From positions 3,658,001-3,722,000 of the forward strand of contig NZ_CP010776.1 of assembly GCF_001577755.1 (NCBI RefSeq): a DNA stretch of 64,000 bases, read 5' to 3'. This document shows, in pieces, positions 47,059 through 62,367 of the stretch. The stretch is from Rufibacter sp. DG15C (GTDB taxonomy: Bacteria > Bacteroidota > Bacteroidia > Cytophagales > Hymenobacteraceae). Each line of letters begins with the position of its first letter. The stretch's first letter is position 1. Below the pieces are notes generated by a model, which did not search any database, was not told the DNA's origin, and saw only the letters and a list, made by a program, of their open reading frames with translations. The translations under genes and the position numbers were made by a program.

Positions 47059-47814
47059 TTACCCAGCCACCATTTGCAAGACGGCGGGTTCCTCTTTGGC
47101 AGGGATGCCTTCTATTTCTAAGCGCTCCATCAGCGTGGTCAAATCAGAAAGGCTTTCCAGCACGAAGTAGGCCTGCGGTTGCTTGCCTTCTTCAAACGGC
47201 GTGGCCACCAACTCCTCTAAAGCCAAGGGCTGCCATTTGGTCTCGTGGCGCAGGGCCGCCTCCCCTTCTGGGGCGTTGGAAATCAAGCGTGACCCGAACA
47301 AGGTCATCTGGCCTTTGTGGTCCCGCAGCAGGCCGTTGCCCAGCACGTGCTGGGAAATCTGCCACAGCGCTTCTACCGTGGCCGGGTCCTGGCTTTTCTG
47401 CGCCAAGGTACCCAAGCGGAACAAGAAGTCGCGCACCTCTGGCTGCGCCAGCCAAGGCAACTGGCTGAAGATGTCCAGGAACAAATCAGAGTTTCCCTGT
47501 AAGCGCAAGTCGGCGTCTGGGTGCAGACGTAGCTGGGTTTGGGCTGGGAATTTGCGTTTGCTCCATTTGGCCAGCACCTGCGCCGGACGCGGAGCCTGCT
47601 CCACGGCCACTACCTGCCAACCCGTATTTTTTTGCAGCCAGAAATTCAACTCCTGAAACTCAGGAATGAAATACGCCTTCAGGTCTAGGGCTTTCACGCC
47701 CTGCCAGAAATTGACAGCTACCACATGCGACAAGGCCTCTACCCGTTTGGTAAACAGGATGTTCCAAATCTGTTGGTGCTGAATGGTGTACTGGTGATAC
47801 GGTTGTTGATACAT
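47059..47814 (-). CDS. Aromatic amino acid hydroxylase-like pseudoenzyme (iron ligands lost)
   Basis: 251 residues from the Met at 47814 (47826 is also possible). It aligns along its whole length with the phenylalanine hydroxylase encoded next door: QHQQIWNIL, FIPEFQELN, KNTGWQVV, KRKFPAQT, the LFLDIFSQLPWL segment, the LFGSRLIS segment and YFVLESLSDL. But the iron site is gone: the two His of HDVFAH are Leu113 and Gln118, and the Glu of TVEFGL falls in VLGNGLL, with no acid. The frame is intact, so it is probably kept for a non-catalytic role such as regulation or binding, though a young pseudogene is possible. It has its own promoter-like sequence, leader ORF and terminator. Confidence 0.85.
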   Translation of the reverse strand: MYQQPYHQYTIQHQQIWNILFTKRVEALSHVVAVNFWQGVKALDLKAYFIPEFQELNFWLQKNTGWQVVAVEQAPRPAQVLAKWSKRKFPAQTQLRLHPDADLRLQGNSDLFLDIFSQLPWLAQPEVRDFLFRLGTLAQKSQDPATVEALWQISQHVLGNGLLRDHKGQMTLFGSRLISNAPEGEAALRHETKWQPLALEELVATPFEEGKQPQAYFVLESLSDLTTLMERLEIEGIPAKEEPAVLQMVAG

Positions 47815-47829
47815 AGCGGTAAGCATAAA

Positions 47830-47865
47830 AAAAGGCCTGGCTCCAAACTCGGAACCAGGCCTTTT
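47830..47865 (-). terminator. Attenuator terminator upstream of the hydroxylase-like pseudoenzyme
   Basis: On the minus strand AAAAGGCCTGGTTCC pairs with GGAGCCAGGCCTTTT, followed by a T run and then the start codon. GGTTCCGAG in this hairpin (plus 47848-47856) is fully complementary (9 bp) to CTCGGAACC in the leader (plus 47918-47926), giving a competing antiterminator. Stem sequence is nearly the same as in the neighbouring hydroxylase attenuator. Confidence 0.78.
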
Positions 47866-47893: not shown

Positions 47894-47983
47894 TCAACTT
47901 TGCCCATACGGTGTCTCGGTTCCGAGCGATAGCTGCATCGGATTACACTTGACAATCGTAAAATAGAGGGCAAATAGTTTCAT
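47894..47983 (-). CDS. Putative leader peptide of the hydroxylase-like gene
   Basis: 29 codons, starting MKLFALYF. Its length equals that of the neighbouring Tyr leader, and the codons LSLG at 18-21 match its ESLG. Three early aromatic codons (Phe4, Tyr7, Phe8) are present, but at the position where the Tyr leader has its Tyr run this one reads Lys-Cys-Asn. It may respond to Phe/Tyr weakly or have lost its sensing ability. Translation is not proven. Confidence 0.5.
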   Translation of the reverse strand: MKLFALYFTIVKCNPMQLSLGTETPYGQS

Positions 47984-48065: not shown

Positions 48066-48812
48066 TTATTTTATTTCTTCCTGAGCTAGAGCAAGTTGTA
48101 ACTCATCTTCAAAGGCAGTTAGTGAATCCATCAGCTGACTGTAGTCCTCCAACACAAAGTATTCTTCCTGGAATTTCTCCTTGATGTACGGCGTCTGCAG
48201 AATCTGGCGCACGTTGAAGGCATGCCGCTTGGGCTCCTCAGAAAGAGAGTAGGCCGTCTCCCCCGCCGAGGACAGAATACCGGCCCCATAGATGCGCAGC
48301 TCGCCCTCCTCTTCAATCAAGCCAAACTCTACGGTGTACCAGTACAGCCTGGAGATAAGTTCTACGGCCCACTCATTGTCCAAGAAATTCAAGGCTACCT
48401 GGCTCATGGCCTCCAGGAAATTCACGAACTCCTGGTTGGCCAGAAGCGGCACGTGCGCGAACACGTCATGGAACATGTCTGGCTCTTCCAGGTAATCCAG
48501 CTGGCTCATGGTGCGCAACCAGGTAGTGGCCGGAAACTTGCGCTGGGAAAGCAACTCAAAAAATGTGCGGTTGTCTACAATGCCCGGCACGCCCACTAAT
48601 TGCCAGCCCGTTTTGGCCAGCAACCGCTCGTTCACCTCGTTAAAATCTGGAATGCGGTTGGGCTCAAACCCTACGTCCTCTAGCCCCAGCAAAAATGCCT
48701 TGGTGGCGGCCGCCGGCAGTATGTTCAGTTGGCGGTTATATAGCAGGTTCCATACCTGTTGGTGTTCTGGCGTGTAGGCGGCGTAATCCTGGGTTAAGAT
48801 GATGGTTGACAT
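48066..48812 (-). CDS. phhA: Phenylalanine 4-monooxygenase
   Basis: 248 residues from the ATG at 48812. It hydroxylates phenylalanine to tyrosine with a tetrahydropterin and iron. The 2-His-1-carboxylate iron site is complete: His115 and His120 in FHDVFAHVPLL, and Glu162 in YWYTVEFGL. There is no N-terminal regulatory ACT domain, as in other bacterial forms. An upstream in-frame extension was rejected because it reads through the terminator hairpin. Expression is likely controlled by a Tyr-sensing leader, which fits its role as a tyrosine source. Confidence 0.95.
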   Translation of the reverse strand: MSTIILTQDYAAYTPEHQQVWNLLYNRQLNILPAAATKAFLLGLEDVGFEPNRIPDFNEVNERLLAKTGWQLVGVPGIVDNRTFFELLSQRKFPATTWLRTMSQLDYLEEPDMFHDVFAHVPLLANQEFVNFLEAMSQVALNFLDNEWAVELISRLYWYTVEFGLIEEEGELRIYGAGILSSAGETAYSLSEEPKRHAFNVRQILQTPYIKEKFQEEYFVLEDYSQLMDSLTAFEDELQLALAQEEIK

Positions 48813-48849: not shown

Positions 48850-48885
48850 AAAAAAAAGCCTGGCTCCGTTGTCGGAACCAGGCTT
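48850..48885 (-). terminator. Attenuator terminator upstream of phhA
   Basis: Minus strand AAGCCTGGTTCCG pairs over 13 bp (one G-U) with CGGAGCCAGGCTT around ACAA, then eight T. TTCCGAC in the hairpin is complementary to GTCGGAA in the leader (plus 48938-48944), seven bp, giving an antiterminator. It lies 38 bases before the phhA start. Confidence 0.85.
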
Positions 48886-48912
48886 TGTATGGTGTAGGAT
48901 ATATCTTCTTTG

Positions 48913-49002
48913 TTATCCTTGAACGCACGCAATTTCCTTCCGACCGAGGGACTCAGGGCGGTAGTAATAATAATTGCAAATGTTCAAGTGTTGTGCTTGC
49001 AT
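48913..49002 (-). CDS. Tyrosine-sensing leader peptide of phhA
   Basis: 29 codons starting MQAQHLNICN and followed by four consecutive Tyr codons (TAT TAT TAC TAC, plus 48961-48972), then RPESLG. The antiterminator arm lies 17 bases past the last Tyr codon, the right distance for a ribosome stalled on the Tyr run to free it. Low charged tRNA-Tyr should therefore switch on phhA. The peptide itself needs no function. Control logic is inferred. Confidence 0.85.
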   Translation of the reverse strand: MQAQHLNICNYYYYRPESLGRKEIACVQG

Positions 49003-49007
49003 GGGTC

Positions 49008-49039
49008 TAAAAGTAGAGGCCGTGAATTGCATCTCCAAA
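49008..49039 (-). promoter_or_regulatory. Promoter of the phhA leader
   Basis: Minus strand TTTG (plus 49036-49039), 20-base spacer, TACTTTTA (plus 49008-49015), one mismatch from TAnnTTTG. The leader ATG follows after five bases, so the leader would be nearly leaderless. Confidence 0.65.
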
Positions 49040-49068
49040 TTAAACGGCAGAATTCTTTGAAGGTTCTT

Positions 49069-49108
49069 CCGTTTTTAGCCTGTTTTTCAGGAAATAAGCC
49101 AAAAACGG
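49069..49108. repeat. Palindromic repeat between aroF and the phhA promoter
   Basis: CCGTTTTTAGCCTG / TAAGCCAAAAACGG, ending two bases before the aroF stop. Likely terminator that separates aroF from phhA. Confidence 0.78.
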
Positions 49109-49110
49109 AT

Positions 49111-50127
49111 TTAATTTCCCAGCTCTTTTCTAAGCGCGAAGGTCTTTTGCATTTTCTTAATCATGCGCTCGGACTCGGAGAAGCTAAGGGTCTGGGCGCC
49201 GTCAGAGGCGGCTTCTTCGGGCTTCTCATGGGTCTCGTAGATGATGCCGTCGGCGCCGGCCATGATGGCGGCCAGGGCCATGGGCTCCACGTACTCGCGT
49301 ATGCCAATGCCGTGTGACGGGTCCACAATTACAGGCAGGTGCGTCTTCTCCTTCAAGATGGGAATGGCGTTCAAGTCCAATGTATTGCGACTGGCAGTCT
49401 CATAGGTCCGGATACCGCGCTCGCAGAGCATCAGTTTCTCGTTTCCGCCGGAGAAGATGTATTCCGCGGAGTACAGCAGTTCGTCAATAGTACCTGAGAT
49501 GCCTCGTTTCAAGAGAACCGGTTTGTCTACCTTGCCCAGTTCGTCTAGCAGGTTGAAGTTTTGCGTATTGCGGGCTCCCACCTGAAAAACATCGGTGTAC
49601 GGTTCCATGGGCGCAATCTGGGACACCTGCATCACCTCAGTGACTACCTTTATTCCTTTGGCGCGGCACATGTCATAGAACATTTTCAGGCCTTCCAGCC
49701 CCAGTCCTCTGAAAGAATACGGGGAGCTACGCGGCTTGAACACACCGCCGCGCATGAAGCGCACGCCTTGTTCCACCAGATGGTTGATGGTTTTCTCCAC
49801 CTGCGCCTCGTTCTCAACGGAGCAAGGTCCGGCCATGATGGTGAACTCCCCTTCCTTCACACGCAACCCATCCCCGAAGTCAATGACCGTTGGATTCACT
49901 TTCCATTTCCGGGAGACCAGCTTGTAGTCATCTGACACAATGTGCAGGTCTTTGATGCCGGGCAGGTTTCCCACGGCGCGCACGTCAAAATCGGCTTTGC
50001 CGGTACCCACCAGGTAATGCCCCTGCTGGGTAATGACCTCGGTGATTTTGTATTTCAGCTCATTGGCCTTTTGGATGATAGCCTCTTTCTGCGCTGGGTT
50101 TATATCTGCTTGGAGTTGTATTAACAT
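49111..50127 (-). CDS. aroF: DAHP synthase with N-terminal ferredoxin-like regulatory domain
   Basis: 338 residues. It makes 3-deoxy-D-arabino-heptulosonate 7-phosphate, the first step of the shikimate pathway. The N-terminal 65 residues (MLIQLQADINPAQKEAII ...) form the small feedback domain known from the Thermotoga-type enzyme. The catalytic barrel has AGPCSVEN (metal Cys), RGGVFKPRSSPYSF, LLKRG and VDPSHGIG. It follows trpA by 138 bases and may be read from the trp promoter or its own. Confidence 0.92.
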   Translation of the reverse strand: MLIQLQADINPAQKEAIIQKANELKYKITEVITQQGHYLVGTGKADFDVRAVGNLPGIKDLHIVSDDYKLVSRKWKVNPTVIDFGDGLRVKEGEFTIMAGPCSVENEAQVEKTINHLVEQGVRFMRGGVFKPRSSPYSFRGLGLEGLKMFYDMCRAKGIKVVTEVMQVSQIAPMEPYTDVFQVGARNTQNFNLLDELGKVDKPVLLKRGISGTIDELLYSAEYIFSGGNEKLMLCERGIRTYETASRNTLDLNAIPILKEKTHLPVIVDPSHGIGIREYVEPMALAAIMAGADGIIYETHEKPEEAASDGAQTLSFSESERMIKKMQKTFALRKELGN

Positions 50128-61796: not shown

Positions 61797-62190
61797 ATCG
61801 GCAGGCCGGCTTATCGCTGCGTCTTTTACTAGACGGAGAGGAAAGTCCGGGCAACGCAGAGCATCCTGCTTCCTAACGGGAAGGCACTTGGCGGGAGACG
61901 GCCAGGTGACAGCCAGTGCCACAGAAAATAACCGCCGGCTTCGGCCGGTAAGGGCGAAAAGGTGCGGTAAGAGCGCACCAGCGGCTAGGTGACTAGTCCG
62001 GCTGGGTAAACCTCAGGAGTTGAAAGACCAAATAGGCTGGCAGCGTCTCACCCTAGGGTGGGACTAAGGGCGGCTCGTCCGATGTCAGTGGGTAGGTTGA
62101 TGGAGCCTTTCCGTGAGGACTGGCCTAGATAAATGATAAGCCATTTGCCCGTAGGGCGAAGGACAAAACCCGGCTTACAGGTCTGCTGAT
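61797..62190 (+). ncRNA. rnpB: RNase P RNA, class A
   Basis: About 394 bases. Diagnostic conserved segments are present: GAGGAAAGTCCGGGC near 61840, ACAGAAAATAACCGCC near 61921, GGTAAGGGCGAAAAGGTG near 61945, AGACCAAATAGG near 62025 and GATAAATGATAAGCC near 62129. Terminal helix P1 is ATCGGCAG with CTGCTGAT, followed by a T run. It is the catalytic RNA that trims tRNA 5' ends. Ends are set from P1 and could be off by a few bases. Confidence 0.93.
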
Positions 62191-62367
62191 TTTTTAATTT
62201 TCCTTTCTAGCTGATTCCAGCTTTTCAACTAACCAACTTTTTCTAGATTGAAGTTTTAATTGATGTCTTACTTGCCCAATTAAGGCAGATAAGCAAATAG
62301 TATAACGCTTATCCATTAGTTGTGCGTCAACCTTGCCAAATTTTTACCAATCTGGTTAAATGAAATA

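Follow-up and report, generated by a model that had tools for sequence, protein, structure and literature searches.

Classical ribosome-mediated attenuators are those of E. coli trp, his, pheA, thr, leu and ilv. T-boxes of tyrosine genes also act on termination; they sense tRNA-Tyr and have no leader peptide. Tyrosine genes are said to be under T-box control in a passage of PMC1262725. In Bacteroidota, leader-peptide attenuation has been proposed before amino-acid operons of Flavobacterium psychrophilum, as PMC9723704 describes, and short ORFs resembling leader peptides have been noted in Bacteroides (a passage of PMC7366714).

The leader described here precedes the phenylalanine hydroxylase gene phhA of Rufibacter sp. 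DG15C (Hymenobacteraceae), in a 64,000-nucleotide stretch of the genome that I hereafter call the window. Like the E. coli-type attenuators, it combines a short leader ORF, in which codons for the product of the pathway follow one another, with an intrinsic terminator and a competing candidate antiterminator, and the gene probably makes the amino acid that would be sensed. Unlike them, it is concerned with Tyr and lies before a phenylalanine hydroxylase gene, its ORF would be nearly leaderless, its promoter-like elements are of the Bacteroidetes type, and the Tyr codons of the window copy lie between the arms of a 5′ hairpin. It shares the phylum and the proposed mechanism with the F. psychrophilum case, whereas neither tyrosine nor phenylalanine appears in the main text of PMC9723704. 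It and a T-box would both sense tRNA-Tyr and act on termination, the leader peptide being found only in the phhA leader. From the analysis reported below, it is very likely that this leader controls phhA by ribosome-mediated transcription attenuation, with charged tRNA-Tyr as the signal that it senses.

Results

Organization of the phhA leader

On the minus strand of the window, the DAHP synthase gene is followed by the promoter-like elements, the Tyr leader ORF, the terminator and phhA (Table 1). The spacer from TTTG to TACTTTTA is 20 nt long, and 5 nt separate TACTTTTA from the leader ATG. A sequence-only reading of this DNA had described these two elements, the 29-codon ORF and its four Tyr codons, and all are present. 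It had also described a terminator with a 13-bp stem and eight T, and a seven-nucleotide arm complementary to it, placed 17 bases past the Tyr run: the eight T and the arm are there, but the terminator scan gives 14 pairs and the arm, GTCGGAA, begins 16 bases past the last Tyr codon. GTCGGAA is complementary to TTCCGAC in the 5′ arm of the terminator. In the minimum-energy fold, TTGAACATTTGCAATT, which lies before the first Tyr codon and runs into it, pairs with AATTGCGTGCGTTCAA, located past the GTCGGAA arm, a single hairpin thus enclosing both the Tyr codons and the arm in the window copy.

Table 1. Features of the phhA and phhA2 leaders (window coordinates) and leader peptides from other Bacteroidota
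Feature	Position	Strand	Basis or remarks
DAHP synthase gene	49111-50127	-	upstream of the leader; itself downstream of trp genes
TTTG, -33-like promoter element	49036..49039	-	sequence; consensus TTTG/TANNTTTG according to a passage of PMC6847099
TACTTTTA, -7-like promoter element	49008..49015	-	one mismatch to TAHHTTTG
Leader ORF, 29 codons, MQAQHLNICNYYYYRPESLGRKEIACVQG	48913..49002	-	ATG 49002, stop 48913
Run of four Tyr codons (TAT TAT TAC TAC), where the ribosome would stall	48961..48972	-	sequence
Bracketing (protector) hairpin, 5′ arm TTGAACATTTGCAATT	48972..48987	-	minimum-energy folds
Bracketing hairpin, 3′ arm AATTGCGTGCGTTCAA	48919..48934	-	minimum-energy folds
Candidate antiterminator arm GTCGGAA	48938..48944	-	sequence; stalled-ribosome fold
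TTCCGAC in terminator 5′ arm, common to terminator and antiterminator	48871..48877	-	sequence
Intrinsic terminator with stem 48886-48855 (14 pairs) and T run 48857-48850 (eight T)	48850..48886	-	terminator scan; z -7.8
phhA (group A), phenylalanine hydroxylase, gene proposed to be controlled	48066..48812	-	ATG 48812; Pfam Biopterin_H 1.1e-49; iron-site residues kept
Second leader ORF MKLFALYFTIVKCNPMQLSLGTETPYGQS, 29 codons and stop, without Tyr run	47894..47983	-	sequence
Arm CTCGGAACC, complementary to GGTTCCGAG of second terminator	47918..47926	-	sequence; homologous helix counted in 17 paralogues
Second terminator	47830..47865	-	terminator scan; z -6.6
phhA2 (group D), Biopterin_H paralogue, presumed pseudoenzyme	47059..47826	-	start 47826 or 47814; without iron-ligand residues
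Roseivirga leader MLHSSAHHYYYYYPNDRNGSAM			L149, L150
Marivirga leader MNFTHNTYYYYYQAPKGIGNGSVMHMM			L163
Fulvivirga leader MNSKYYYYYYYRITPFGVGVVCS			L171
Chitinophagales MAG leader MIHCSTYYYYYPNPARLGAGW			L143

Four consecutive TAY codons occur once in the window, against 0.01 expected, and at 14 sites in the host genome, where the reversed pattern has 22; of these 14 sites, only the leader combines a short closed frame with a terminator found no more than 260 nt further on. In the window copy, the fold of the terminator stands out most (Table 1), that of the whole leader has a z of -4.7 and that of the bracketing 5′ hairpin a z of just -1.7. The duplex between the arm and the terminator of the window copy was equalled by 40 of 100 shuffles; the significance of the leader comes from its relatives. 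A covariance-model search returned neither a T-box nor any other Rfam family on the leader at gathering score. At E ≤ 1 there were two matches, which were far under their gathering scores and were taken as chance.

Conservation of the Tyr run and terminator

PhhA (P0001) was searched in 150 Hymenobacteraceae genomes, 132 of which gave a match. All 78 matches with E ≤ 4.1e-77 were defined as group A, and their upstream regions were taken (30 + 48 loci). An ORF of 8–60 codons containing at least four Tyr in eight codons, with a terminator before the gene, was found for 72 of the 78 group-A orthologues, near-identical relatives included. When the nearest 300 nt were shuffled (terminator not required), the Tyr pattern turned up in only one of 390 cases, and it was seen in none of 32 upstream regions of paralogues. 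Other amino acids reached the same threshold in the 78 regions, namely Leu in 31, Ala in 26 and Ile in 15; Leu and Ala lead among the shuffles as well (0.24 and 0.11), and the Ile counts come, I think, from TAT repeats read in another frame. These numbers contradict the notion that the leader is a spurious Tyr-rich ORF that happens to lie before the terminator of the upstream DAHP synthase unit. What speaks for that notion is the presence of the DAHP synthase gene upstream of the leader on the same strand; yet a DAHP synthase match within 1.5 kb upstream was found in just 16 of 103 loci (some shorter than 1.5 kb, and including six same-family duplicates and two proteobacterial loci), and I regard a chance origin as extremely unlikely.

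A terminator lies between leader ORF and gene in 75 of the 78 group-A loci, although that of L016 looks spurious. The six loci without the full pattern fall out in different ways: L014 and L015 have neither Tyr run nor terminator, the upstream region of L016 resembles what I take to be an insertion-sequence fragment, L059 has a Tyr leader and no terminator by scan, and L025 and L037 have a terminator and three Tyr in eight codons. Tyr is spelled both TAT and TAC in every cluster, and the indels seen in the Tyr stretch of the g5 and g6 clusters are of three bases. Some g3 loci (including L022, L023, L027, L029 and L030) have long Tyr leaders, up to 57–60 codons from their putative starts, with a conserved N-terminal part of the MHxPAAIAT type.

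Outside the family, the best 80 of 592 relatives were considered. Six of these 80 were same-family loci (L145, L157, L181, L183, L186 and L190; five have a Tyr leader, L157 has none) and were removed, and nine proteobacterial loci were counted apart, which left 65 named Bacteroidota loci. The Tyr ORF and terminator were found in 15 of these 65, again counting near-identical relatives, and not in the other 50; none of the nine proteobacterial loci, drawn from the same best 80, has them. An order-level set of 29 loci (L224-L252), of which four were too short for the scan, gave 5 of 25, near-identical relatives included. Tyr-run leaders were seen in Roseivirga, Marivirga, Fulvivirga and Chitinophagales MAGs (Table 1), and the leader peptides outside the family have little in common except the Tyr run. 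No such leader was seen at the Spirosoma, Dyadobacter, Emticicia and Runella loci listed. Algoriphagus and related loci have a terminator and a short mixed Tyr/His leader of the MNPTPRTYVHHSYHFLQ type, under the threshold used here; phhA leaders of this type were noted at L158, L161, L162, L170, L184, L236, L240, L241 and L244.

Predicted start of the leader transcript

In Flavobacterium johnsoniae, the -7 box TAHHTTTG covers positions -12 to -5, according to the part of PMC6847099 that deals with it. If the box of the window copy is used in the same way, +1 would fall about 1 nt before the leader ATG, and the leader mRNA would be nearly leaderless. Leaderless mRNAs amount to 5.5% in F. psychrophilum, by a figure given in PMC9723704. 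All 5 leaders of the host's own cluster, 3 of 6 of g5, 19 of 22 of g6 and 8 of 20 from elsewhere in the phylum have a box with at most one mismatch no farther than 9 nt from the ATG, mostly at 4–6 nt; the corresponding shuffles had one in 8 of 100, 8 of 120, 21 of 440 and 33 of 400 cases. In g3, the box is near the ATG in 3 of 39 leaders versus 9 of 780 shuffles.

Proposed competition between the arm and the terminator

The proposed mechanism is as follows. When tyrosine is plentiful, the ribosome would reach the stop codon and cover GTCGGAA; with the arm covered, the terminator would form and transcription would end before phhA. When tyrosine is scarce, the ribosome would stall on the Tyr codons and open the bracketing hairpin, and the freed GTCGGAA would capture the 5′ arm of the terminator, so that RNA polymerase would continue into phhA. 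Once expressed, PhhA would make Tyr from Phe by hydroxylation. In an untranslated leader, the arm may be held by the bracketing hairpin, which is the least supported step. The transcription start (from the -7 box), the co-transcription of phhA with its leader, the stalling and the response to tyrosine are inferred.

The ribosome was modelled by folding the RNA 3′ of it up to the terminator loop, the A site being placed either on the last Tyr codon or on the stop codon, and the pairs formed by the leader with the terminator 5′ arm were counted in the own (5), g5 (6), g6 (22), g3 (39) and phylum (20) groups, an order kept in what follows. The median number of antiterminator pairs was 12, 9, 13, 8 and 9.5 for the ribosome stalled on the last Tyr codon and 5, 2, 6.5, 8 and 5 for the ribosome-free RNA; for the ribosome at the stop codon it was 2, 6, 0, 5 and 0, a drop that is partly built in, less RNA being exposed. 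The stalled state exceeded both others in 3/5, 6/6, 15/22, 9/39 and 9/20 leaders. Since it is not the best state in many leaders, the holding of the arm by the bracketing hairpin in the absence of translation is not general. The hairpin around the Tyr codons does recur with unrelated letters, for instance as GAACAACGCAT with ATGCGTGTGTTC in L012 and as TTACATAGC with GCTATGTAA in L149. Even with a stalled ribosome in the model, the full terminator is usually the winning fold, so that kinetic capture would be needed.

Mean numbers of pairs in the stalled state were above those of shuffles in every group (12.8 versus 7.9, 9.2 versus 6.3, 13.3 versus 10.0, 8.4 versus 6.9 and 9.4 versus 6.9), the observed number being reached by 5 of 100, 31 of 120, 109 of 440, 279 of 780 and 137 of 400 shuffles. 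By duplex energy, at most 5 of 100 shuffles were as good as the real arm in 35 of 75 loci, the window copy not being among the 35, of which 28 belong to own, g5 or g6, and the arm duplex is weak in g3. The duplexes of the cluster mates L012, L017 and L018 were each matched by 0 of 100 shuffles. In the five own-type leaders, the arm starts 8–15 nt past the last Tyr codon. Compared by eye, because MAFFT puts the helices 1–2 columns out of register, the arm helix of this cluster reads GTCGGAA:TTCCGAC in the window and the sister genome, TTCGGAA:TTCCGAA in L017 and L018, and TTTGGAG:TTCCAAA in L012: two of the seven pairs are changed on both sides and none is broken across four distinct lineages. 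In g6, a 13-pair antiterminator forms in 94.8% of cells, versus 38–55% for slid versions of it, and its covariation is not beyond that of shuffles, 141 of 500 of which reach its score.

The sequence-only reading had called this a stalling attenuator and had proposed to look in relatives for the Tyr run and for compensatory changes in the hairpins. The Tyr run and the terminator are conserved as described above (72/78), and the position and folding of the antiterminator agree with the claim; covariation of the antiterminator did not bear it out in g6, the cluster of sufficient size for that comparison. That missing covariation, the weak duplex in g3, the success of the terminator hairpin in most full-length models and the frequency with which shuffles reach equal numbers of antiterminator pairs would also fit another form of control, in which the Tyr-run ORF is translated and acts by translational coupling or reinitiation, through Rho or at the level of translation, the hairpin being a plain partial terminator that is not switched. 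The geometry argues against it. In own, g5 and g6 (L014-L016 omitted), 20–37 nt separate the ORF stop from the terminator, and another 37–99 nt lead to the matched part of the gene, distances unlike the 11–14 nt of Bacteroidetes reinitiation found in a passage of PMC4833913, while in the same loci the arm begins 5–22 nt past the last Tyr codon. Control of this other kind is, in my judgement, unlikely. What the analysis shows for ribosome-mediated attenuation is that the parts are present, that the Tyr run and terminator are conserved, that the folds fit and, from the results that follow, that PhhA keeps its active site and that a TyrA match is lacking.

Role of PhhA

The iron-site residues, two His and one Glu by the motif assignment assumed here, are kept in all 31 group-A proteins inspected. 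No match to prephenate dehydrogenase (TyrA, PF02153) was found in the host genome or in its sister G017. Counted at E below 1e-29, TyrA is present in 111 genomes; weak partial matches were scored absent (G030, G071, G084, G092, G098, G106 and G122, that of G071 being over Pfam's cut-off), and genomes without a listed TyrA match were taken as lacking it. On this footing, the 150 genomes comprise 43 with both phhA-A and TyrA, 35 with phhA-A only, 68 with TyrA only and 4 with neither. Hence phhA-A is carried by 35 of the 39 TyrA-less genomes and TyrA by 68 of the 72 genomes without phhA-A (Fisher p 1.8e-8, a value that ignores kinship).

The host genome also gave no match for prephenate dehydratase (G000; L256, L257), whereas the sister genome has one. 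The sister gene lies in a stretch of about 6 kb, where the host has about 2.3 kb without blastn match, and a search for a remnant beside the corresponding host site returned nothing better than E = 2. TyrA and prephenate dehydratase are both absent in 26 of the 35 genomes with phhA-A only. A chorismate mutase domain is present in the host genome. As the host genome shows neither TyrA nor prephenate dehydratase, and 35 of the 39 TyrA-less genomes carry phhA-A, phhA is probably the tyrosine-making step in the host, which on its gene content is predicted to need Phe and to obtain Tyr from it by PhhA. In this family, phhA seems to stand in for TyrA.

In Echinicola vietnamensis, a member of the same phylum that has both routes, fitness data in a portion of PMC7311316 make phenylalanine hydroxylase important in some defined media, which is taken there as tyrosine making. 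The assignment of phhA to tyrosine synthesis thus draws on genome content, on active-site residues and on that portion of PMC7311316, and the prior claim that the controlled gene makes tyrosine is supported by the reciprocal occurrence of phhA and TyrA together with the Echinicola data. A catabolic or other purpose, in which case the Tyr leader would report something besides a need for Tyr, could be argued from a Cupriavidus whose phenylalanine hydroxylase is catabolic according to the same portion of PMC7311316, and from the 43 of 78 group-A genomes that keep TyrA. I consider it very unlikely, given that the host and 34 other genomes have phhA-A and no TyrA at the chosen threshold, that induction by Tyr shortage fits synthesis, and that the Echinicola data (PMC7311316, in the portion cited) point the same way.

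A second leader before phhA2

Downstream, phhA is adjoined by phhA2, which is preceded by a second attenuator at 47983-47826 (minus strand), with a leader and a terminator of its own and no Tyr run. Despite its lost iron ligands, phhA2 is an open frame in 7 of the 7 genus genomes inspected. Among the paralogues (groups B, C and D, about 30–51% identical to PhhA), a leader of 26–32 codons was found before 32 of 33, a count that was not blind, the leader being taken as the ORF of 18 or more codons whose ATG is the first to be preceded by a promoter-like box; no codon run was seen in these leaders. In the proteins, Gln replaces Glu in the iron site of 12 of the 14 group-B members inspected, and the site is kept in five group-C proteins and two g5-type ones.

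No terminator was found by scan in L097, L106-L109, L111 and L112, and of the other 25 paralogue leaders 17 were aligned, L105, L110 and L113-L118 being left out. The antiterminator of these 17 is formed in 98.0% of cells, with covariation above that of shuffles (1/500). Indels before the arm are of three bases, and RNAalifold gave no consensus fold of the paralogue leaders before the terminator. Adjacent hydroxylase genes may carry two attenuators with different inputs, and the second leader could be an arrest peptide that senses a small molecule such as Phe or a pterin, the organisms, like animals, importing Phe as their source of Tyr; I put this forward tentatively, as a rather improbable reading.

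Discussion

No Tyr attenuator or phhA leader was found in print in the open-access literature; the sequence-only reading knew of no standard example on a phenylalanine hydroxylase gene, or of a Tyr run in the phylum. What seems new is Tyr, phhA and Bacteroidota in combination, classical attenuation being long known and the attenuation of amino-acid operons in the phylum having precedent. If the attenuator is as proposed, tyrosine would join the amino acids sensed by leader-peptide attenuation, through a switch kept in most of the family and in several others of a phylum without Shine-Dalgarno starts, and phenylalanine hydroxylase would be tied to tyrosine synthesis in the family. With such a leader, transcription-translation coupling and near-leaderless starts could be tested cheaply in Bacteroidota. 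A further prediction concerns the host and 25 other family genomes in which phhA-A is present and TyrA and prephenate dehydratase are both missing: they would require Phe and use it as their source of Tyr.

Other elements of the window were noted in passing. The trp operon has a leader at 57213-56915 (minus strand), in which two tandem short ORFs with Trp pairs, MNPQLVHGAWWHILHI and MVLGANMKQHYWWHQSQDL, were recognized by eye; a hairpin comes after each ORF, and that of the second has a T run. It is like the phhA leader in design, but with Trp codons and two leaders in tandem, which suggests that the attenuator design is in use in the host genome. At 49060-49110, past the DAHP synthase gene and before the leader promoter, lies a palindromic element (CCGTTTTTGGC...) that has 48 further genome matches among those listed, some of them being the two strands of one place. 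Finally, class A RNase P RNA (Rfam RF00010) is encoded at 61798-62193 on the plus strand.
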